Assembly: GCA_002070115.1 (NCBI GenBank)
Contig: MWCO01000024.1
Span: 1-64,000 of the forward strand
DNA from: Deltaproteobacteria bacterium ADurb.Bin207
GTDB lineage: Bacteria > Myxococcota_A > Polyangia > Polyangiales > Polyangiaceae
Direction: 5' to 3'
DNA: 64,000 nucleotides
The notes beneath the pieces are model-generated. The model worked only from the letters and a program-made list of their open reading frames with translations. It searched no databases and was not told where the DNA came from. The translations under genes were made by a program, and so were the position numbers. Below, in pieces: positions 30,716 through 50,843 of this stretch. How positions within the stretch are numbered: position 1 is the first letter of the stretch; every line of letters starts with the position of its first letter.

Positions 30716-30883
30716 ATGAAGCTCTTTTCCTCGGCGATACCACGCTGAAAAATCGACCGATGCAAGCTGTTTTCCCATTGGCCTTCCGAGCGGCTGTGGT
30801 ACACGATGAGCGCTTTTCTGGGCCGATGAGGCCCCTTCCACCCCTCGCTGCTTTTCTTTGCGAATTGCCATGAGGGCTTGGAT

Positions 30884-32584
30884 GTGGAGGCAGCCATTTC
30901 GATCGTCGCCCTGATTCTCACGGTGCTTGGTTCCCTCGGCGTTTTCCTTCTGGGGATGAAGCTCATTTCCGAAGCTTTGCAGAAGGTGGCGGGCGAGCGT
31001 CTCAAGTCATTGTTGGCCAAAATGACTTCGAACCGGTTCAGCGGTGTGCTCACGGGTCTTGCGGTCACGGGGGTACTGCAATCCAGTTCGGCCACCACCG
31101 TCATTGTCGTCAGCTTCGTTTCGGCCGGCTTGTTTACGCTCACCCAAGCCATTTCCGTCATCATGGGCGCCAATATCGGCACCACGGTGACCGGGTGGAT
31201 CGTGGCGTTGGTCGGCTTCAAGATGGAAATCACGCTTTTTGCCCTGCCCGCGATTGCCTTCGGCGTGTTCATGAGCTTCATGAAACACGTAAAAATCAAG
31301 CTCTGGGGCGAGGTGCTCGTCGGTTTCGGTATCTTATTTCTCGGCCTATCGTTGATGAAGGATTCGATCCCCACCATCTCGAACCCCGAACAACTTGCCT
31401 GGCTCAAGCACTTTTCGGGGGGAGGACTGTGGTCGACCCTCGCATTCGTGCTGTTTGGGACGGTCATTACGGCGATTCTTCAGTCCAGCTCGGCGACCAT
31501 GACCATGACCTTGACGCTTGCGGCCATGGGATGGCTTCCCTATTCCGCGGCGGCAGCGTTGGTTCTTGGCGAAAACATCGGCACGACGGCAACCGCCAAT
31601 CTTGCCGCTATTGGAGCGCCTCCGGTGGCCAAGCGGGCAGCCCTTGCTCACCTGTTTTTCAACGTCTTTGGTGTCATATGGGCGGTCGCTCTCATGAACA
31701 TCTATTGGCTTCCCATGGTGGATTGGCTCGTGCCCGGAGACCCTACCGTGGACTTCAATACCATTCAGGGCGATCCGGCGGCATTGGCTTTGGCCGCTGG
31801 CGTCGTCTCCACGCATCTGGCCGCTGCCCACACGCTATTCAATGTCACCAATACCGCGATCATGCTGCCTTTCGTTCGTCAACTCGAGCGCCTCGTCACC
31901 CGAATCGTTCCTGAAACCGATGACGAAGCACCCGCCCGTGCCCGATTCCTCGACCCTTCGCGCATCGGAAGCGCCGAAATCAACGTGGTTCAGGTGAGCA
32001 AGGCCATGCAGCATATGATCTCGTTGGTTCGAAATATGCTCAAAGACGCCTTTTATATCGTCGCCCATCCCCACGATGACCTCGGAAAAATGGTCGAAAA
32101 AACGCTGGGGATCGAAAGAGAGGTCGACCAACTCGAACAGGAAGTCCTGTCGTATCTGGCGGCTCTCGGCCAAATGCCTGTTTCGGAAGCTACCTCACGA
32201 AAGCTCTCGGACCTGGTGCAAAACACCCACCGACTCGAACGCATTGGAGACCATTGTGCCGTCATCGTGCGCATCGCGCGACGCATTCATTCCGCGGGAA
32301 CACCGTTTTCGGAGGAAGCCATCGAAGACACCCACCGTCTTTATGAACAAGTGGACCGCTCCCTCGAACACGTAAGCGCTTTCATATCCGGTTCGGGAAG
32401 TATCACCGTGGGCGAGGAGATCGAGGATAGGATCGATTCTACCCGTCGAAAACTCCGCGGAAAATACGTGCAGAAAATGGAACAGGAGGGGGCTCAGCGG
32501 GCGCAATGCCTCGCGGTGTTGGATACCATCACCCATCTCGAGGAGATTGGGGATAGAGCGGTGGGAATCATCCGGCGGGCGTGA
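30884..32584 (+). CDS. Na+/phosphate cotransporter (NptA-like) with PhoU domain
   Basis: The 566-residue protein has an N-terminal membrane domain with the two inverted QSSS motifs of the Na/Pi cotransporter family (VLQSSSATTVIV and ILQSSSATMTMT), each followed by a GxNIGTT segment. From about residue 360 a PhoU-like helical domain follows. It imports phosphate, or exports it in some bacteria, driven by Na+. GTG 30884 is selected because GAGGG lies 7 bases upstream; a TTG at 30878 is too close to that site. No Pho-box-like repeat was seen in front of it. Confidence 0.93.
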   Translation: MEAAISIVALILTVLGSLGVFLLGMKLISEALQKVAGERLKSLLAKMTSNRFSGVLTGLAVTGVLQSSSATTVIVVSFVSAGLFTLTQAISVIMGANIGTTVTGWIVALVGFKMEITLFALPAIAFGVFMSFMKHVKIKLWGEVLVGFGILFLGLSLMKDSIPTISNPEQLAWLKHFSGGGLWSTLAFVLFGTVITAILQSSSATMTMTLTLAAMGWLPYSAAAALVLGENIGTTATANLAAIGAPPVAKRAALAHLFFNVFGVIWAVALMNIYWLPMVDWLVPGDPTVDFNTIQGDPAALALAAGVVSTHLAAAHTLFNVTNTAIMLPFVRQLERLVTRIVPETDDEAPARARFLDPSRIGSAEINVVQVSKAMQHMISLVRNMLKDAFYIVAHPHDDLGKMVEKTLGIEREVDQLEQEVLSYLAALGQMPVSEATSRKLSDLVQNTHRLERIGDHCAVIVRIARRIHSAGTPFSEEAIEDTHRLYEQVDRSLEHVSAFISGSGSITVGEEIEDRIDSTRRKLRGKYVQKMEQEGAQRAQCLAVLDTITHLEEIGDRAVGIIRRA

Positions 32585-41243: not shown

Positions 41244-43133
41244 TTACGGAAGCACATATCCAAGCAATTGTTCGAACTTCTGTCCTTCGCATCCTGGGTC
41301 CGTGGACACGAAATGATCCGAACCGGCTCCAATTCGGCAGCGATGCAACGCAACGGTCCCGCTCTGCTTGGTTTCGTAAATATAGCCCACGGGGCCCATC
41401 GGATGCTGGTTTTCGCAATTGACGGAGGTCGACAACATATTGTGGCTACCGACCAGGCATTCGTACAGCATCTTGGTTCCGGCTTTGGGGGCTCGCAGCA
41501 GACGCCATGACTGTTCGGTTTTGAATCCCGACGGGGCGATGCGCGAAGAGGCCCAATGGCCGCGGCTGGAATGATAGGAGCGCGTCAGACGCGTGTACGG
41601 GAGGTGTTCGAAGCCGCAAGATAGCTTGGGAGGATTGAGGTCGTTTCGATTCGCGAGGGCCCAGACTGCCCAGGCTTCTTTGGCATGGCCTTTGTCATCG
41701 TGAAGTCCGAGGCCAAGTCCCGCAGCCGTTTCCGCGGGATGATCGGTCATGCGATGGTAGATATAGCTTTCGATTCCGGGGGTTCCGAGCACGTTGCGCA
41801 ACGACCGGCAGACCCCATCGGCCTGGGCGGCTTGACTGGACTGCGGCGCCAAGGAGTTCACGCCGCTTTCCGTAAGCTGGATTTCCCAGGCGCTGGGCGT
41901 GTTGGGAAAGGTTTTTCGAAGCCATCCCGCGAGCGTCCCCAGATTTCCATACGTCACGCGAGGCCAATCATCGGGCCCAAAAGCAGGAGCCAGGAGGTTC
42001 GGAGGGTAGGGGTGATACGCCACCCGCCAGGCGCGGGAGCCAACCCGTGAAGCCAGCCCCGTCAGCATGGTCTGCCCGGATAAAAGCGGGTTATTCGCGG
42101 CTGGAGCATCATAACTCGAGCCGAAATGATGCTCCAACGAGATCAAGATCTTGGCTTCGGTTTGCTCGGCCTTCACGGCATCGTAAGCCGCGTTGTAATT
42201 GGCCGCATACGTGTCCATCCACGCTTTGGGATCGCATGGCTTTCCTTGCCCGCAGCCAATATCGAACCAATCGTTGGCGTTGACTTCGTTGTGGATGACG
42301 AAGTCCGCGATGCGCCCGTGTCCGTGAAGACCGTTGTAACGACGCGCCAGCATACCCGTGAAGCGTCCGTAATCATTGGCGTTTTTTGGTGCACAGAAGA
42401 TTTCGAACCCCGGGGATACCGGGGAGCAGCCCGATGAAATCCTCGCCCACGCGGGCACTCCATATACGACCGCCGTGACGACGAGTCCGCGGGCGGTCCA
42501 ATCCGCAATGGCTTTATCCACCTTGGAATTGACGACGAAGCAGTGGCCGTCGAACTCCTCTTCGTTGCTAGCGCAAGGGGGGGCTTTCTTGCTCGGTTCC
42601 CAATGGGCCCATACGAGATTCATGGCGACGCCCCCGGTGTTGTTGCCGGAGATTTCGTCGGGGTTTGGCCAGAAATCGGGTTGTAAACCCTTGATTTTAT
42701 AGGCATTTCTTGTTGGATAGGGCAGCCCGTTCCCTCCTGAACCGCCCGAACCCCCGGTGCCCCCCGCCCCTGCGGTCCCTCCGCTGCCTGCTGTTCCCGC
42801 GGAACCCCCGGTTCCCGCCGAACCCGCTGCTCCCCCGGAACCACCGATGCCTCCCGCGCCGGCGGCTCCACCTTTGCCTGCTGCTCCTGCTTCCCCACTC
42901 GTTCCCCCAACGCCCGCGGAACCTCCAACACCCGCTGAGCCACCGGTTCCCGCCGACCCGTCTGCAACACCAGATTCCGCGTCGACTCCACCGGAATCCG
43001 ACGCTCCCTCCGCGCCACTATCCGTGGAGTCGGAATTGCTAGCAACGCCGCCGCTTTCCGTTCCGCAAGAGCTGAGGCAGAGCGTGATACCCACGGTCAT
43101 GGCCAAGGCAAAAACACGGCTTTGATACGTCAT
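41244..43133 (-). CDS. Glycoside-hydrolase-like lipoprotein with Gly-rich linker
   Basis: The 629-residue lipoprotein has signal and lipobox LCLSSC (Cys23). Residues 59-136 are almost entirely Gly, Ala, Ser and Thr (GGSAG-type repeats) and form a surface spacer. The domain from about 140 to 480 resembles TIM-barrel glycosidases or DUF5722 proteins: an [12 protein letters not shown] segment with a Glu at a typical acid/base position, and [12 protein letters not shown] with a possible nucleophile Glu. The last 110 residues contain two similar modules ([19 protein letters not shown] and [20 protein letters not shown]), a repeat seen at the end of secreted hydrolases. Carbohydrate degradation is likely but unproven. 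Confidence 0.78.
42726..42959 (-). repeat. Gly/Ala/Ser low-complexity coding repeat
   Basis: These bases encode residues 59-136 of the glycosidase-like lipoprotein, a run of GGSAG/GGTAG-type units with almost no other residues. Similar shorter linkers occur in the genes at 10176, 12191 and 55151. Confidence 0.7.
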
Positions 43134-45037: not shown

Positions 45038-46336
45038 TTAGTTCGTAGCGCGATTGGGTCGCAATTCGATGGGATACGTGACGGTCGTTTTCCCTCCCAC
45101 GGCAGGGAAAGAGAGCCCGCGAACGACGCCGAGAAAGCATTGTTGCAGCTCGGCATCCGTCAAGGTGGAGTTGGGTTCCATGCGAGCCATACCGACCGCG
45201 CCGCGATCGTCGATTTCAAATCCCACGATGAACTTGCCAGCGGCTTCAGGCGATTTTTCCAAGTGTTTTTCGTAACATTGGCGCAACGAGGGATACGCCG
45301 CGCGAATCGTGTTGCGTATCTCCGAAGAGCGCAAGCCATGGGTGAGCGCAATGGGTTTGGGTTCCGTGGGGAGTTCTGTCATTTCGGAAAATGCTCGTTC
45401 CACCTCGGATAATAGCCCCCAGCGCGGAGCCGCGATCACGATGATGGGAGGCGCGTTTTCACGTAACTTGGCGACAACTACCCCTTGCTCCGGATGCAGA
45501 TAGGAGGCGATTTGGTCCGCGGCCAGCGGAAGATACCGATCGTAGCGTCCAGGGACTCGAAGCTGTTCCAGATCGAAATAAAAGACCGTCAGCGAGTCGG
45601 CCAAAGAAGGATTGTCAGAAGACGAGGCGGCAAGGACCATGGGCAAGGACGTCCATGAGGAAAACCCTGAATGGGTATTGTCCATCCGCACTTTGTTTTC
45701 GCATAGCGGGCAGGCGTCTTCCGCAGCGCGACGAATCGCTCCTGCGATGTTGAATGTTCCTAACGTTTCACTGCTTTCTGGAGGACGGCCAAAAACCAAG
45801 ATGCGAACGGAGTAAGAGCCATTCGCGGCAGGAGGGAAAAACTTGGATAGCACACCGGCCATCGGGGCCACTTGCTCTTCACGCGTGGGTTGACGCGGCT
45901 CACGATCGTCATTGTTCAACAGCTTGCTGAGGCGACGTTCCGCCGTGGAACGGCTTTCGAAATGCTTGGAACCAGGATGGGAGCCCAGCAGAGTCTCGAC
46001 TTGCACGATGGCCCCTTCTCGGTCCCCTTGCAATTCCAAGGCGCGGCTCAGCGCCAGACGCGCATCGTCTTTCGCCGAAGCCGTAAGCGATGGATCCTGC
46101 AACAGGGCTTCCAGTGATTTTCGCGCGCCATCCAGGTTTTTTCCCGTCTCCACTTGACGAATGGCGTCTTCGAGACGAGCCGTGACGGCCTGGGGTTGTG
46201 CGACCAGCTCGGTCGACACTTGGGCATTGTCGATCTCGGTGGGAGCATCCTGGTTGCAACCAAATCCGGCAAGGATCGCGAGCAGAGGGGATGCAAAACG
46301 AAACGTTCGGGCGATGCGGGTATGGGTCGGGTTCAT
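45038..46336 (-). CDS. Lipoprotein with TPR-like region and AgmX/PglI C-terminal domain
   Basis: The 432-residue exported protein has a leader with a lipobox-like GFGC at Cys27. Residues 45-140 look like TPR helices. The middle (160-310) contains a CPLC pair. The C-terminal 100 residues carry the AgmX/PglI-type tail (SLRQCYEKHLE, and QCFLGVVRGLSFPAVGGK), a TonB-like fold with paired cysteines that is frequent in Myxococcota. ATG 46336 follows a strong GGAGG. Upstream lie TGTCA direct repeats similar to those in front of the adjacent histidine kinase, so it may be a target of that two-component system. A gliding or surface role is suggested only by AgmX naming. Confidence 0.82.
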   Translation of the reverse strand: MNPTHTRIARTFRFASPLLAILAGFGCNQDAPTEIDNAQVSTELVAQPQAVTARLEDAIRQVETGKNLDGARKSLEALLQDPSLTASAKDDARLALSRALELQGDREGAIVQVETLLGSHPGSKHFESRSTAERRLSKLLNNDDREPRQPTREEQVAPMAGVLSKFFPPAANGSYSVRILVFGRPPESSETLGTFNIAGAIRRAAEDACPLCENKVRMDNTHSGFSSWTSLPMVLAASSSDNPSLADSLTVFYFDLEQLRVPGRYDRYLPLAADQIASYLHPEQGVVVAKLRENAPPIIVIAAPRWGLLSEVERAFSEMTELPTEPKPIALTHGLRSSEIRNTIRAAYPSLRQCYEKHLEKSPEAAGKFIVGFEIDDRGAVGMARMEPNSTLTDAELQQCFLGVVRGLSFPAVGGKTTVTYPIELRPNRATN

Positions 46337-46417
46337 CAATTTTTCCTCCAGGTTGGGGGGCCGAAGTGGCCCTTCACCCTGCATCCTGGATCGCCGATGT
46401 CTTGGAATTGTCCCTGC

Positions 46418-46447
46418 CATGTCACGGATTTGTCACGGCGTGACAAA
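46418..46447 (-). promoter_or_regulatory. Pho-box-like direct repeats with inverted third half-site
   Basis: On the plus strand, two TGTCACGG units lie 11 bases apart (units at 46418 and 46429), the spacing of PhoB-family binding sites. The second unit is followed by CGTGACAAA, making a 19-base palindrome (46429-46447). With a one-base centre and no T-run it is not a terminator. It sits about 80-110 bases upstream of the AgmX-tail lipoprotein start and 60 bases past the regulator gene. Confidence 0.5.
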
Positions 46448-46509
46448 CCCGATGCAGCCCTTTGCCATGAATCATTGCCAGGAATTATGACGATCGCGGT
46501 GGGCATGAT

Positions 46510-47220
46510 TCACTTTCCCGTAAGAGAAAAGCGATAGCCCGCGCCCCGTACGGTAACGAGAAAACGAGGCGTTTTTGCGTTCGGTTCGATGATCCCGCGA
46601 AGACGATTGATGAAATTATCTACGGTCCGATCCGTGCCGTAATAATCCGCTCCCCATACCGCATCGAGGATCTGCTGACGCGACAGCACACGTCCATCTC
46701 TTGACAAAAAATACCGAAGAAGCCGGACTTCGAGCGCCGTGAGCGTGATCGCCTGGCCATCGCGTTGCGCTCGATGCGAAGATAAATCAATGGTCACATC
46801 ACCTATCCGAACCGTGGCGGATTGTGCTTCTTCACGGCGGATCCGTCGCAAATTCGCTTCGACGCGCGCGATCAATTCAGCTATCCCAAAAGGTTTAACG
46901 ATATAATCGTCCGCCCCCAATCGAAGTCCACGAACGCGATCTTCTTCCTGTCCCTTTGCGGTTAGCATCAGAATCGGTAGATCCGCATTGCGCTGACGAA
47001 TGGTTTCCAGTACCTCGAACCCATTCATGCCGGGAAGCATCACATCGAGCAATACGAGATCCGGTCGTTCGGATAAGGCCGCTTCCAGTCCAGAAGGTCC
47101 GTCGTTGGCCACAATCACCCGAAATCCCTCGGAACGCAACGTGGCGCGCAACCCCATCCGCAGCGTGGGATCGTCTTCGATGACAAGCACGGTCTCTTGT
47201 CTCGTCGGTGGTTGTATCAT
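46510..47220 (-). CDS. OmpR/PhoB-family response regulator
   Basis: The 236-residue regulator has a receiver domain with acidic pair Asp16/Asp17, phosphoacceptor Asp59 (LVLLDVMLPGMNG), a switch Thr (LMLTAKG) and Lys (IVKPFG). The C-terminal winged helix (about 135-232) has the OmpR/PhoB signature LTALEVRLLRYF and the VDNFINRLRGII recognition region. ATG 47220 follows AAGGAGCG and overlaps the histidine kinase stop by 4 bases. Its partner is certainly the upstream kinase. Direct TGTCA repeats in front of the kinase and of the next gene suggest it binds Pho-box-like sites and controls itself and the lipoprotein. Confidence 0.94.
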   Translation of the reverse strand: MIQPPTRQETVLVIEDDPTLRMGLRATLRSEGFRVIVANDGPSGLEAALSERPDLVLLDVMLPGMNGFEVLETIRQRNADLPILMLTAKGQEEDRVRGLRLGADDYIVKPFGIAELIARVEANLRRIRREEAQSATVRIGDVTIDLSSHRAQRDGQAITLTALEVRLLRYFLSRDGRVLSRQQILDAVWGADYYGTDRTVDNFINRLRGIIEPNAKTPRFLVTVRGAGYRFSLTGK

Positions 47221-49037
47221 GATTCGCTCCTTGGGAATCGAATCCGAAAAGTGGCCCCTTTTCCGGGTTCGCTCATGACTTCCGCATGACCGTGATGGGC
47301 TTGTGCAACCTGTCGCACAAGGGACAATCCGATACCGCTGCCCTGAACCGCGCTGCTCAATCGATCGTCGCCGCGAACGAATGGCTCGAAAATACGTTTC
47401 ACATCCGATCGTCGGATACCTGGGCCGCGATCGATGACGTCGATGACGATCCACGCGTTTTGCTCACGGGCTACCACCCGATAGGGTGTGCCGGAAGGAG
47501 CGTATTTTGCCGCGTTTTCCAGAAGATTATCCAAGGCCAGACGCAGATGATTGTCATCGAATTGCGCCTTCATGTCCCTTTCCACTTCGACTTCGACGGC
47601 CAAGTCCGGATGCCGATCTCGAAATGCCATCACGGATTGATGGATCGGTTCGAATACCAAACCCTCTTTTCGCACGATGGAATACCTTCCGGCGCTCATC
47701 CGGCTGAATCCGAGCAAGCGGTCCACCGTCTCTCCCAGTCGCTTCGCTTCTCGCGAAAGGGCAGCATGAACTTCAGCCTTCTCATCCTCCGGCACTCGGT
47801 TTTCTTCTAATAATTCCGATAACATACGAAGCGATGCCAGGGGCGTCCGAAGCTCATGGGATACGGTCGATACGAATCCGGCGCGCAAAGAACTGAGTTT
47901 TCTGGCCGCCCGCATCCGCGCAAACAAAAATGCCGCAAGCACGAACGCAACGACCATCGCACCAACCCCAACCCCCGCCAATACAATGCGTGCTCGAGAC
48001 GTGCGCCGATCGATCAACAGAGGATCTGCCAAGGATACCTGCACACCGAGGGAAGGGGTGATCCAAGAAACGCTCTTGAAAGGAGTGGTGTCGCGATCCA
48101 TCTCGGCGGGAGTCTCGATGAGATCCACGCGATAATCCGCGGATCCCGTCGACCAACCGTGGGCCATCGCCCGACGAACGGATGCCGCGTGGATGACGAA
48201 ACCAGCGCGCATTCCCGTGGATATCGTTTTCAAATAGCCAATCGATGCATCCGAATTCCATTCGATGATTTCTGGCGTCGTGGCGCCATCATGAAGAACC
48301 GGCCTGGGGTTGGGGTCCGGCAATACCGCACGAACCGCCTCATGGTTGGTCGAATCCGCTGATAATGCTGTCAGGACGCGTTTTCGGGCCGGTCCCGTGA
48401 GGGTAGGCAATGCGAGGCTTGCCCGCATCGTTGCCTCCCGTTCGGAGGGGCGCATCGAGGAAGCATGGCTTTCCATCCACGAGGCCAGACCATCGGCGTG
48501 CTCGGGCGTGAAAGACTCCATCGCGATGAGCGGCCAGACCCAACGCCCCGTGACGCTTCGATATTCCTGACACTGATGCATGAAGTCATCGCGAAGCCCC
48601 CCATGGGACGGCGACGATCGAGATCGCGCGAGTTCATCTGCCATGGTCCCACAACGAGGGGGAGCGATTCCCTTGGGCTCGGAAGTAATGGCTTTTCGGG
48701 CAGGAATGAGCAGTTCTCCCTCGGAGGAGAGCACGACCGCGTCCGCGATCGCGGGCGTGATCGATCGTAACGCGTTTTCGAGCAAAACCGGATCGGTCGG
48801 CAAGGAGCTATCGCGAAGACGGTTCGAGCCAGCGCGTGTCATGGTTTGTGATTCCATGACCATGCGTTTGGCCATGGCCTCGATGGTCACCTGGATTTCA
48901 CGACGGGTAGCATCTTCCTGGCCCTGCAAAGCGCGCAATCCGATCCATCCCATGGCAAGCGCGGGCGTGAGCGCAATGACCGTAAATCGCAGCCAATCAC
49001 GCATCGTCTCGCCAATCGCCCGTGTGTCGCTCGACAT
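47217..49037 (-). CDS. Membrane sensor histidine kinase
   Basis: The 606-residue kinase has TM1 at about residues 17-33 and TM2 at 350-372, enclosing about 315 residues of periplasmic domain that I do not recognise; no HAMP domain is visible. The dimerisation box is VSHELRTPLASLRML with His394. The ATPase domain shows the N box (DNLLENAAKYAPSG), DRGPGI and GSGIGLSLVRQVAQAH. Start at 49037 is supported only by position; ATG 49004 has a better GGCGAG upstream and would leave a normal leader after the proposed promoter. It overlaps the response regulator and forms one operon with it. Confidence 0.94.
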   Translation of the reverse strand: MSSDTRAIGETMRDWLRFTVIALTPALAMGWIGLRALQGQEDATRREIQVTIEAMAKRMVMESQTMTRAGSNRLRDSSLPTDPVLLENALRSITPAIADAVVLSSEGELLIPARKAITSEPKGIAPPRCGTMADELARSRSSPSHGGLRDDFMHQCQEYRSVTGRWVWPLIAMESFTPEHADGLASWMESHASSMRPSEREATMRASLALPTLTGPARKRVLTALSADSTNHEAVRAVLPDPNPRPVLHDGATTPEIIEWNSDASIGYLKTISTGMRAGFVIHAASVRRAMAHGWSTGSADYRVDLIETPAEMDRDTTPFKSVSWITPSLGVQVSLADPLLIDRRTSRARIVLAGVGVGAMVVAFVLAAFLFARMRAARKLSSLRAGFVSTVSHELRTPLASLRMLSELLEENRVPEDEKAEVHAALSREAKRLGETVDRLLGFSRMSAGRYSIVRKEGLVFEPIHQSVMAFRDRHPDLAVEVEVERDMKAQFDDNHLRLALDNLLENAAKYAPSGTPYRVVAREQNAWIVIDVIDRGPGIRRSDVKRIFEPFVRGDDRLSSAVQGSGIGLSLVRQVAQAHHGHAEVMSEPGKGATFRIRFPRSES

Positions 49038-49043
49038 CCTGCC

Positions 49044-49079
49044 ATTATCGCATGGGCCATGTCATGGCCATGTCACAGG
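49044..49079 (-). promoter_or_regulatory. Proposed autoregulated promoter of the kinase-regulator operon
   Basis: Plus-strand CATGTCATGGC and CATGTCACAGG lie 11 bases apart (49058-49079), resembling a Pho box. Immediately downstream in the gene direction is GATAAT (minus strand, 49049-49044), a good -10 element. The repeats occupy the -35 region, as in PhoB-activated promoters. Transcription would begin very close to ATG 49037, favouring ATG 49004 as the true start. Confidence 0.5.
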
Positions 49080-49124: not shown

Positions 49125-50465
49125 TCATGTCTTGGAAGGGTCGGCGACGATTCCCAGGAATAAGATGAGGTTGGTTTCGTTGTCTCGGACGACGAAGACG
49201 AAGGGATGGTCGGCTTTGAACGCGCGCGGACGCAAAATGGCGGATGCGGTTCGAGCCATGGTTACGGCAGTTGCGGCGGCTGCTTCTGTTCCTTTTTCGT
49301 CCGTGCGGATGAATCCTTTGTGGAAAACCTCGGAGATATAGAGTCGGTCCTGAGGGTTCGGAGGATTGGCGATTTTCGAAAAATTCGCGTTGCGGCGATC
49401 GAAAGCGGTGCGCATACCCAGTTCGCGCAACGGCGTACTCAGTCGCATCGGAGCGCTGGGTTCGAGTTTGAAGGAGGGGATCGATACCCATACGGATTCA
49501 TGCGAAAGCCCGTTCGTGAGTTCGCGCCAACGCGTTTCGTCCATCGATGATAGCGCGGCATCGAGCCCGTCGACCGCGTCGGGAAGAACGATGATCATGG
49601 ATAGGTCGTTGCCTTCGTAGGGAAGTTCGAGAGCGGTAACACCGTCTTTGGAGGCGATTCGGTACGAACCCGTGCGGCTCATGGTGGGCACGGAGATGGT
49701 ATTCGAAGGCGAAAGATGAAACGGATTGGGCTGGGTGCGTTGTTTGTCGAAGGGCGCGGCCCAATCGCCGAGAAAGTAGACGGCGTTGACCAACACAAGA
49801 CGTGTCTCCGAATCGACGCCGCGATTGGGAATTAGGTTTTGAATTCGGTTTTCCGTTTGTTGCTCCACCCATTCGTTGATGAGCCGTCGCGTGGGTTCGT
49901 GCGCCGTTTTGAAGTTGACCTGTTGCATGGGAGCGCCAAAAGCACGGGCGGTTTGCGAAAGGAAGGAAGGCTCGAAGGGATACGTTTTCTCCCCGAATAG
50001 CTGGTTGGCCACACGAAAGGTAATGGGCCGAGATCGGTCGGTCAGCGCTGCAATCAGCTTCCCACTTGCCTCCATCACTTCGGAACTGGAGGACTCAAAA
50101 TGCAGGACCTGTTGCATTTCCTTGGCGGTCTGCCCGTCCGCGCCTCCCCACGTCATGGATAACGCAAACGAAATGCTCGCGGGAGAAAACACGAGGTTGC
50201 CCGGCTGCGCACGAGAAAGCTTGGGGAATAGGTCGAACGCCAGACGATTGATCGATGTCGCGAGTTTGGTCATCGTATCACCGGTGGAATCCGCGGTTGG
50301 GGAATCGGGCGCAACCGGTTCGGTGGGGGGTAAGACCACCGACGATGGTGCTGGCTCCGGTTGTGGGGAAGAGCGGGGGACGGAGGACTGTGGGGGTTGG
50401 GGACCGCAAGCGGTAACGATCGTGGCAACGATCAAGGGAAGAACGCGTTTCGATAAGCGATACAT
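49125..50465 (-). CDS. Serpin-family lipoprotein (protease inhibitor)
   Basis: The 446-residue serpin is a suicide inhibitor of serine or cysteine proteases. A signal with Cys20 (VTAC) and a Pro/Ser-rich linker (to about residue 60) precede the complete serpin fold (NLVFSPASISFALSMTWGGA; FHKGFIRTDEKGTEAAAATA). The reactive-loop hinge GTEAAAATA (392-400) with small residues is the inhibitory type. By standard spacing P1 is Thr406, with Arg405 at P2. The end matches HPFVFVVRDNETNLILFLG. ATG 50465 follows GAGGAG. It lies 87 bases upstream of the sensor kinase operon. Lipoprotein serpins are uncommon in bacteria; target protease unknown. Confidence 0.94.
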   Translation of the reverse strand: MYRLSKRVLPLIVATIVTACGPQPPQSSVPRSSPQPEPAPSSVVLPPTEPVAPDSPTADSTGDTMTKLATSINRLAFDLFPKLSRAQPGNLVFSPASISFALSMTWGGADGQTAKEMQQVLHFESSSSEVMEASGKLIAALTDRSRPITFRVANQLFGEKTYPFEPSFLSQTARAFGAPMQQVNFKTAHEPTRRLINEWVEQQTENRIQNLIPNRGVDSETRLVLVNAVYFLGDWAAPFDKQRTQPNPFHLSPSNTISVPTMSRTGSYRIASKDGVTALELPYEGNDLSMIIVLPDAVDGLDAALSSMDETRWRELTNGLSHESVWVSIPSFKLEPSAPMRLSTPLRELGMRTAFDRRNANFSKIANPPNPQDRLYISEVFHKGFIRTDEKGTEAAAATAVTMARTASAILRPRAFKADHPFVFVVRDNETNLILFLGIVADPSKT

Positions 50466-50843
50466 GATGGTGCTCCTCAAAGGATTCAGAGGCTTCGGCC
50501 CGAGCATGATAGGCCCGAGGGATGTAGGAAAGAAACGAATGAATGCGGGTATCCTTACAGGGATGCGCGTGGTCGATCTTCCCAAACGCGGTTGTGGCTG
50601 TGGCGAGAGCCTGCGTCACGGGATTGGATGGCTAAGCGTGGCAACCATAAAAGGCGCACGACTTGAGAGAGCCATGACCACGGCTGTTGCGACAGGCTTG
50701 CGCTTCGGCAGTTCGGGTTCGTGCGTAACGCGGGAAAATGCGCCGTAACAACATCCATGCTGGTGATAGGTCCTACACATTTTTCCATTTGATGCATGAC
50801 GCCGCTTCGCTTCCCGTGAGATAGATGCCAGCGGAGGTGCTGC

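Follow-up and report, generated by a model that had tools for sequence, protein, structure and literature searches.

The Pho box takes the place of the −35 element, and phoBR is itself autoregulated; the operators of Bacillus subtilis PhoP, which belong to a Firmicute phosphate regulon, are TT(A/C/T)ACA repeats arranged as several 11-bp-phased half-sites. The Escherichia coli Pho box has the motif CTGTCAT in two direct repeat units of 11 nt, and an 11-bp direct repeat is a common type of operator in the OmpR/PhoB family (PMC4415409). The subject here is a group of three adjacent genes, for a histidine kinase (HK), an OmpR/PhoB-family response regulator (RR) and a putative lipoprotein (LIPO), with 11-bp direct repeats upstream of the HK and LIPO genes. 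They lie in a 64-kb window of the Polyangiaceae genome Deltaproteobacteria bacterium ADurb.Bin207 (contig MWCO01000024.1, positions 1 to 64,000; the window is the whole stretch analyzed).

The module resembles PhoB-PhoR in having an OmpR/PhoB-family regulator, an 11-bp direct repeat and a TGTCA core. It differs in that its half-sites are mirror-oriented, it has no link to phosphate genes, its proteins score below the PhoB and PhoR cut-offs and the recognition helix is altered; in addition, three relatives that carry the module have a separate PhoB-like gene near PhoU. The TTnACA unit of B. subtilis PhoP resembles the gene-sense unit of the module, GTGACA, and has the same 11-bp phasing, but serves a Firmicute phosphate regulon. 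RegX3, MtrA and VicR share a fold family with RR; no common operator or partner genes are known for them. Similar in promoter layout is Salmonella PhoP: its tandem half-sites stand about one helical turn from −10 in one- or two-box promoters, its boxes function about 12 nt upstream of −10 and at that distance a single orientation works, yet its half-site is (T/G)GTTTA (PMC3335776). In gene content a parallel is QseE-QseG-QseF, in which a kinase, a regulator and an envelope lipoprotein that controls the kinase are encoded together; QseF works at sigma54 promoters and autoregulation is reported to be absent (PMC6075780). In such three-component systems the lipoprotein sets kinase activity by binding to the periplasmic loop. 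LIPO likewise is usually adjacent to HK and RR and occurs in the same genomes.

The locus probably encodes a two-component system that regulates itself and a very small envelope regulon, with RR activating its own operon and LIPO. Autoregulation with one defined neighboring target had been proposed in the initial annotation, and the comparative evidence (conservation, spacing and genome ranking) strongly supports it. No account of this circuit was found in the part of the open-licence literature covered, on OmpR-family direct repeats, on myxobacterial or Sorangium lipoprotein-linked two-component systems and on AgmX. For an uncharacterized kinase-regulator pair of part of one family, this gives a circuit with an operator grammar at base level, in which the pair's own promoter is predicted to yield a leaderless mRNA, the target promoter has four half-sites and the output protein has a name.

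Two sites flanking the regulator gene

The repeat TGTCA-N6-TGTCA is found in the window at 46420-46435 and at 49060-49075, on the plus strand in both cases, and nowhere else, against an expectation of 0.10 copies; a pair of copies appeared in none of 100 shuffles. The 11-base-spaced TGTCA units seen at both places by the initial annotation are therefore real, as is the GATAAT beside the HK site. The annotation was also right that the repeats have the same orientation at both genes, but TGTCA runs opposite to transcription since the genes sit on the minus strand, and the unit in gene sense is GTGACA. On the gene strand the repeat reads GTGACA-N5-GTGACA with an 11-bp period, the site upstream of HK being GTGACAtggccATGACAtggcccatgcGATAATggcaggATG and that upstream of LIPO GTGACAaatccGTGACAtggcaGGGACAattccAAGACA. 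The features of the module are as follows.

47217-49037, minus strand: HK, 606 aa, with HisKA and HATPase_c domains; its ATG stands 6 nt after the predicted −10
46510-47220, minus strand: RR, 236 aa, an OmpR/PhoB-family response regulator (Response_reg 115.8 bits, Trans_reg_C 87.4 bits)
45038-46336, minus strand: LIPO, 432 aa, lipoprotein-like at the N-terminus (by eye), with TPR-like helices and, at the C-terminus, an AgmX/PglI domain (NF033768)
49071-49076, minus strand: HK promoter half-site 1, GTGACA, putative operator
49060-49065, minus strand: HK promoter half-site 2, ATGACA, 11 bp from half-site 1
49044-49049, minus strand: predicted −10 hexamer of HK, GATAAT, 10 nt past half-site 2 and with TGC before it
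46431-46436, minus strand: LIPO promoter half-site 1, GTGACA, putative operator
46420-46425, minus strand: LIPO promoter half-site 2, GTGACA, putative operator
46409-46414, minus strand: LIPO promoter half-site 3, GGGACA, degenerate in relatives with G and A kept (2.00 and 1.38 bits)
46398-46403, minus strand: LIPO promoter half-site 4, AAGACA, degenerate in relatives with A kept (2.00 bits)
46383-46388, minus strand: predicted −10 hexamer of LIPO, CAGGAT, 9 nt after half-site 4
46429-46447, no strand: perfect palindrome TTTGTCACG-G-CGTGACAAA with 9-bp arms, made of LIPO half-site 1 and an upstream inverted unit

RR lies between the two sites, as the initial annotation had stated for the OmpR/PhoB-type regulator gene, and the LIPO boxes follow directly downstream of it. 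The RR start and the HK stop share an ATGA, so that HK and RR are probably a single unit. As in OmpR/PhoB-family two-component systems, RR combines a receiver with a winged-helix Trans_reg_C domain and adjoins a HisKA/HATPase kinase. No Pfam family matched the N-terminal region of HK, in which a cysteine pair, C129/C156, is invariant in 12 of 12 aligned orthologs. The C-terminal domain of LIPO scores 71 bits against the NF033768 cut-off of 40; Pfam matches to the TPR-like helices are weak and below cut-off, and AlphaFold is confident at about residues 51-120. The LIPO start at 46336 is inferred from alignment, an upstream ATG at 46420 being also readable in frame.

The added inverted unit that the initial annotation saw at the LIPO site corresponds to the palindrome at 46429-46447. 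This palindrome is absent from the LIPO promoters of 13 relatives compared by eye and is possibly an extra, species-specific control.

Distribution and conservation

The HK survey covered 116 genomes: 71, counting that of the window, come from the window's family and 45 from other families in the order. Fifteen of them, all of the window's family, have a near-full-length HK, and LIPO is present in all 14 relatives carrying HK. Among 317 class-level genomes LIPO is matched in 26: in 24, all in the family, over most of its length, and in two outside the family by the C-terminal tail only. No further full LIPO occurs in genomes G001-G115, so far as these are included among the 317. The other nine LIPO genomes also have HK and RR; in one of them a contig end interrupts HK, and in a second RR is truncated. 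The order HK-RR-LIPO is kept in 11 of the 14 discovery loci; in L043 HK lies 5.4 kb away from RR, in L045 LIPO precedes HK by about 4 kb on the opposite strand, and L051 is interrupted by contig ends.

The repeats had been taken to stand or fall with their conservation in related genomes, and they are conserved. A box is present at 20 of 22 readable HK upstream regions and at 23 of 24 LIPO upstream regions, among them that of a relocated LIPO gene; with similar promoters down-weighted, the effective numbers are 11 for HK and 14 for LIPO. A strict form, GTGACA-N5-GTGACA with at most one mismatch per half and TGA fixed, was scanned for in 284 kb of locus and window sequence. It is confined to HK and LIPO promoters, always on the gene strand, apart from two chance matches in the window. 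Among the boxes of the discovery set, 10 of 12 at HK and 7 of 14 at LIPO have this form, and the HK boxes of L049 and L050 came from a position weight matrix (PWM).

With a PWM built from nine HK boxes, the tested locus being left out, the HK box ranks first in 11 of 11 relatives that have it, among which L047 is not independent because it is near-identical to L046. In the window, the same PWM gives the top rank to the LIPO box and the next to the HK box. L043, L044 and L045 have the LIPO promoter at the top, in the latter two through half-sites 2 and 3, and the LIPO box ranks lower in the other loci. A second PWM, from 11 HK and 13 LIPO discovery sites, was applied to ten further loci: all 8 HK upstream regions and 9 of the 10 LIPO upstream regions have a box scoring at least 18, and no other match reaches 11 in these loci apart from the same boxes shifted by 11. 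The ten are not fully independent, since they come from genera already used and the HK box of G028 was in the training set.

In the rearranged L043 and L045, HK is without a box and LIPO lacks a CxxC motif; of 13 aligned LIPO proteins, the remaining 11 have it. The lone LIPO upstream region without a box belongs to L215 (G313:C1:9559000-9569000), where the C-terminal half of RR and the LIPO promoter box are gone at the same spot; the losses look as if they were one deletion, either a natural knock-out or an assembly fault.

Promoter architecture

Two half-sites are found at HK promoters and four, with an 11-bp period, at LIPO promoters. At the latter, half-sites 1 and 2 have strongly conserved cores, half-sites 3 and 4 retain G24/A25 and A36, and a linker C recurs at positions 9, 20 and 31 (2.00, 1.47 and 1.27 bits). 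A −10-like hexamer, nANNNT, was sought 8-11 nt past the last half-site, where the background for two adjacent offsets is 5.3%. It follows half-site 2 in all 20 box-bearing HK promoters, at 9 nt in 18 and at 10 nt in two, and stands exactly 9 nt after half-site 4 in 22 of 23 box-bearing LIPO promoters, the exception being L039. An operator in the −35 position at an equal distance from −10 at both promoters is as expected for class II activation of the Salmonella PhoP kind (PMC3335776). At all 20 HK promoters the start codon of a long frame lies 5-12 nt past the hexamer, and the HK transcripts are therefore predicted to be leaderless. Inspection by eye also raised the idea of a sigma54 promoter at LIPO (TGGC...), which was discarded.

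In the circuit that these promoters suggest, the membrane sensor HK would sense an envelope condition and phosphorylate RR, which would bind GTGACA-N5-GTGACA as a tandem dimer at the −35 position. One dimer site would drive HK-RR, giving positive feedback through a leaderless mRNA, and two adjacent dimer sites, the four 11-bp-phased half-sites, would drive LIPO. The envelope lipoprotein would be the chief output and might also feed back on HK; that it may act on HK as QseG does on QseE is a guess from analogy.

Genome-wide specificity

The sites of the module stand out from whole genomes. Twenty-four genomes were searched with a sequence-only model of 30 boxes, which scored 150 first-look candidates in each and had the HK and LIPO sites in its training set. 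An HK or LIPO site is on top in 23 of the 24 (in the exception, G019, the LIPO site is second); the LIPO site is recovered in 23 of 23 genomes having it and the HK site in 16 of 20. With a second model made after removal of the window sites, the 6.5-Mb genome of the window still had the LIPO site at the top (E 0.029), with the HK site next (E 0.30). The third-ranked site there (contig C149, E 1.05) is coding, within an open frame of 566 codons, and has no nANNNT at 9-10 nt.

Beyond the HK, LIPO and pst-type boxes, 22 extra sites were examined in the fetched loci, 8 from a first scan and 14 from a second. A hexamer nANNNT lies 9-10 nt past half-site 2 or 4 in 8 of the 22, where roughly 10% are expected from two anchors at 5.3% each; these eight, and one more upstream of a tail protein, are the following.

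L246 (G038): precedes a protein with an N-terminal hydrophobic segment and an AgmX/PglI tail, 60.8 bits
L273 (G033): precedes a protein with an N-terminal hydrophobic segment and an AgmX/PglI tail, 39.4 bits, just below the cut-off of 40
L247: precedes a small lipoprotein (by eye)
L269: precedes a lipoprotein-like protein (by eye) of no family
L272: precedes a lipoprotein-like protein (by eye) with an S41 peptidase domain
L279: lies ahead of a fatty acid desaturase
L276: hexamer-bearing, unexplained
L245: hexamer-bearing, inside a long open frame, unexplained
L251 (G019): upstream of a tail protein by position, no hexamer match

The convincing extra sites are those ahead of envelope proteins. 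Three extra sites, found by DNA alone, precede LIPO-type tail proteins. Chance is an unlikely source of the three tail matches, because AgmX/PglI tail domains number 11-35 matches per genome (12 genomes searched) and 20 other tail-gene regions, hand-chosen from the tail-domain list, are boxless, with a best score of 8.1. The regulon looks small, with two promoters in the window's own genome and a few more in some relatives, and the function of AgmX/PglI-tail envelope proteins becomes more testable.

The simpler pattern TGTCAY-N5-TGTCAY has six matches in the same genome, four of them outside the window. Three (L002, L005 and L007) are read as chance, being inside reading frames. The fourth, L006 (G000:C94, about 16567), consists of the 11-bp unit TGTCAWTCGGC repeated three times in tandem, where a short gap separates two open reading frames (ORFs), in surroundings that we take from their appearance to be a tad-type cluster; it is likewise read as chance.

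Relation to PhoB and phosphate control

The initial annotation compared the repeats with PhoB sites. The likeness extends to the regulator subfamily and the half-site core, but not to the RR score, the recognition helix or the orientation of the box. PhoB (TIGR02154) is the best-scoring model for RR, which is also its best match in the genome; at 235.9 bits RR falls short of the cut-off of 296.2, and no RR in the genome passes it, although the cut-off is strict, as only 2 of 14 control genomes pass. HK likewise fails the PhoR model TIGR02966 (151.4 bits, cut-off 334.2).

The annotation's statement that no pst or pho genes are nearby needs qualifying, since a Na/Pi-cotransporter-like protein with PhoU domains lies about 14 kb off, at 30878-32584. 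It holds the sole PhoU-domain matches in the genome, which has no stand-alone PhoU, and window scans found no box beside it. As the genome also lacks a PstC above cut-off (29.4 bits against 196.45), phosphate control is not supported.

In all 14 relatives PhoU is sited away from the module. Three module-bearing relatives (G058, G019 and G046) have a gene near PhoU labeled PhoB-like by position; in G058 and G019 this gene is 42.8% identical to RR and is accompanied by a kinase. The recognition helix reads DNFINRLR in RR, DTHVKRLR in the PhoB-like proteins of G058 and G019 and DVHIRRLR in E. coli. Five of 13 PhoU loci (L217, L219, L221, L305 and L311) contain a CTGTCA-N5-CTGTCA box with 11-12 of 12 matches, each pointing into a pst- or phoB-type gene, opposite to the module orientation; gene labels at these loci rest on position and motif. 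A weaker box of the same sense is found in L218, and the remaining 7 of the 13 loci, several of which cover the region only partly, have no CTGTCA-type box. Toward an oppositely directed ORF that flanks the box in L217, L218, L305 (a dubious ORF) and L311, the box has the module orientation, and because such an ORF adjoins most of the boxes, it is mainly in L219 and L221, which are of one genus, that the direction can be taken as firm.

At L217 (about 4010) and L218 (about 5060), the box lies between the PhoB-like gene and a divergent lipoprotein-like ORF, and may serve both genes; on the divergent side a TATAAG stands about 8-11 nt from it, in module orientation. In L221 (6687-6727) the pst-type ORF comes close behind a −10-like TACGAC and may be leaderless too.

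The half-site of the module, GTGACA in gene sense, does not give CTGTCAY-N4-CTGTCAY along transcription. Either RR reads GTGACA in the usual sense, which the changed helix would fit, or it binds the old core reversed. A tentative extension, rather doubtful at present, is that PhoB and RR share the TGTCAC core in the same cell in mirror orientations to the promoter, PhoB in the pst sense; direction, together with small flank and helix changes, would then insulate the envelope circuit, and each regulator could block the promoters of the other. RR and the PhoB of its relatives form a natural pair for asking how PhoB-type regulators with a common core stay insulated.

Weighing the alternatives

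The same promoters could be read in reverse, with RR as a repressor that occupies the −35 region of both until a signal releases it. The boxes do overlap that position, and a constitutive promoter could lie beneath them; the constant −10 phasing nevertheless resembles class II activation of the kind described for Salmonella PhoP (PMC3335776), and four phased half-sites at LIPO would fit graded activation better. Repression is thus unlikely. Less likely still is that a PhoB recognizes the boxes as Pho boxes and that they belong to phosphate control. The TGTCAC core is common to the CTGTCAC-N4-CTGTCAC boxes near pst- and phoB-type genes of relatives, PhoB is the best model for RR, and both the module PWM and the model detect a pst-type box; against this stand the sub-threshold RR score, the genome without PstC above cut-off or stand-alone PhoU, the distance of PhoU from the module in relatives, the opposite box orientation and the different helix. 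Equally improbable is that another DNA-binding protein owns the box and HK is merely among its targets. Comparative genomics cannot name the binding protein, and in L043 and L045 it is LIPO that retains the box; an 11-bp direct repeat is, however, a common type of operator in the OmpR/PhoB family (PMC4415409), HK, RR and LIPO co-occur in genomes, and in most cases the promoter of the regulator's own operon carries the box. That the repeats are chance or a structural by-product, such as a terminator or a REP-like repeat, is scarcely credible: the palindrome within the window's LIPO box would suit it, but the boxes are conserved between genes in divergent relatives with fixed strand and spacing, and recovery in further loci and genome-wide ranking speak strongly against it.

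Activation by RR of its own operon and of LIPO thus has the best claim, and several observations count against it. A −35-like placement is compatible with repression. The box is missing at 2 of 22 HK upstream regions (L043 and L045), the LIPO boxes of L039, L040, L044, L045, L046, L047 and L050 fail the strict form and were placed by alignment, and that of L050 is outside the top four of the HK-only PWM. The ten further genomes come from genera within the discovery set. The 30-box model missed the HK boxes of G312, G040, G057 and G067 (4 of 20), and its best E-values run from 0.007 to 0.95, many being only 0.01-1. PWM scores separate module and pst-type boxes incompletely, because the pst-type box of L219 (G055), which is also a model match at G055:C1:9290422, scores 20.5 with the module PWM, level with module boxes. 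Most extra sites are chance-like, the 14 of 22 without the hexamer resembling chance with the exception of L251. Structure models are too poor for use, AlphaFold without alignments giving a mean confidence (pLDDT) of 50.3 for LIPO and 45.9 for HK.

Other observations

By sequence, the nearest solved structures to RR are RegX3, MtrA and VicR, RegX3 being the top PDB match both for the whole protein and for its DNA-binding domain. In the search for named relatives, HK gave none and the LIPO alignment was too little conserved; an alignment search with RR returned OmpR-type regulators of 39-52% identity as the best 80 of 593 loci, a result that was not used. Directly upstream of HK, at 49125-50585 on the minus strand, lies a serpin (PF00079, 378 bits) whose N-terminus looks lipoprotein-like by eye. 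Elsewhere in the window, a DUF5722 protein at 41244-43133 carries a long Gly/Ser/Ala-rich linker.

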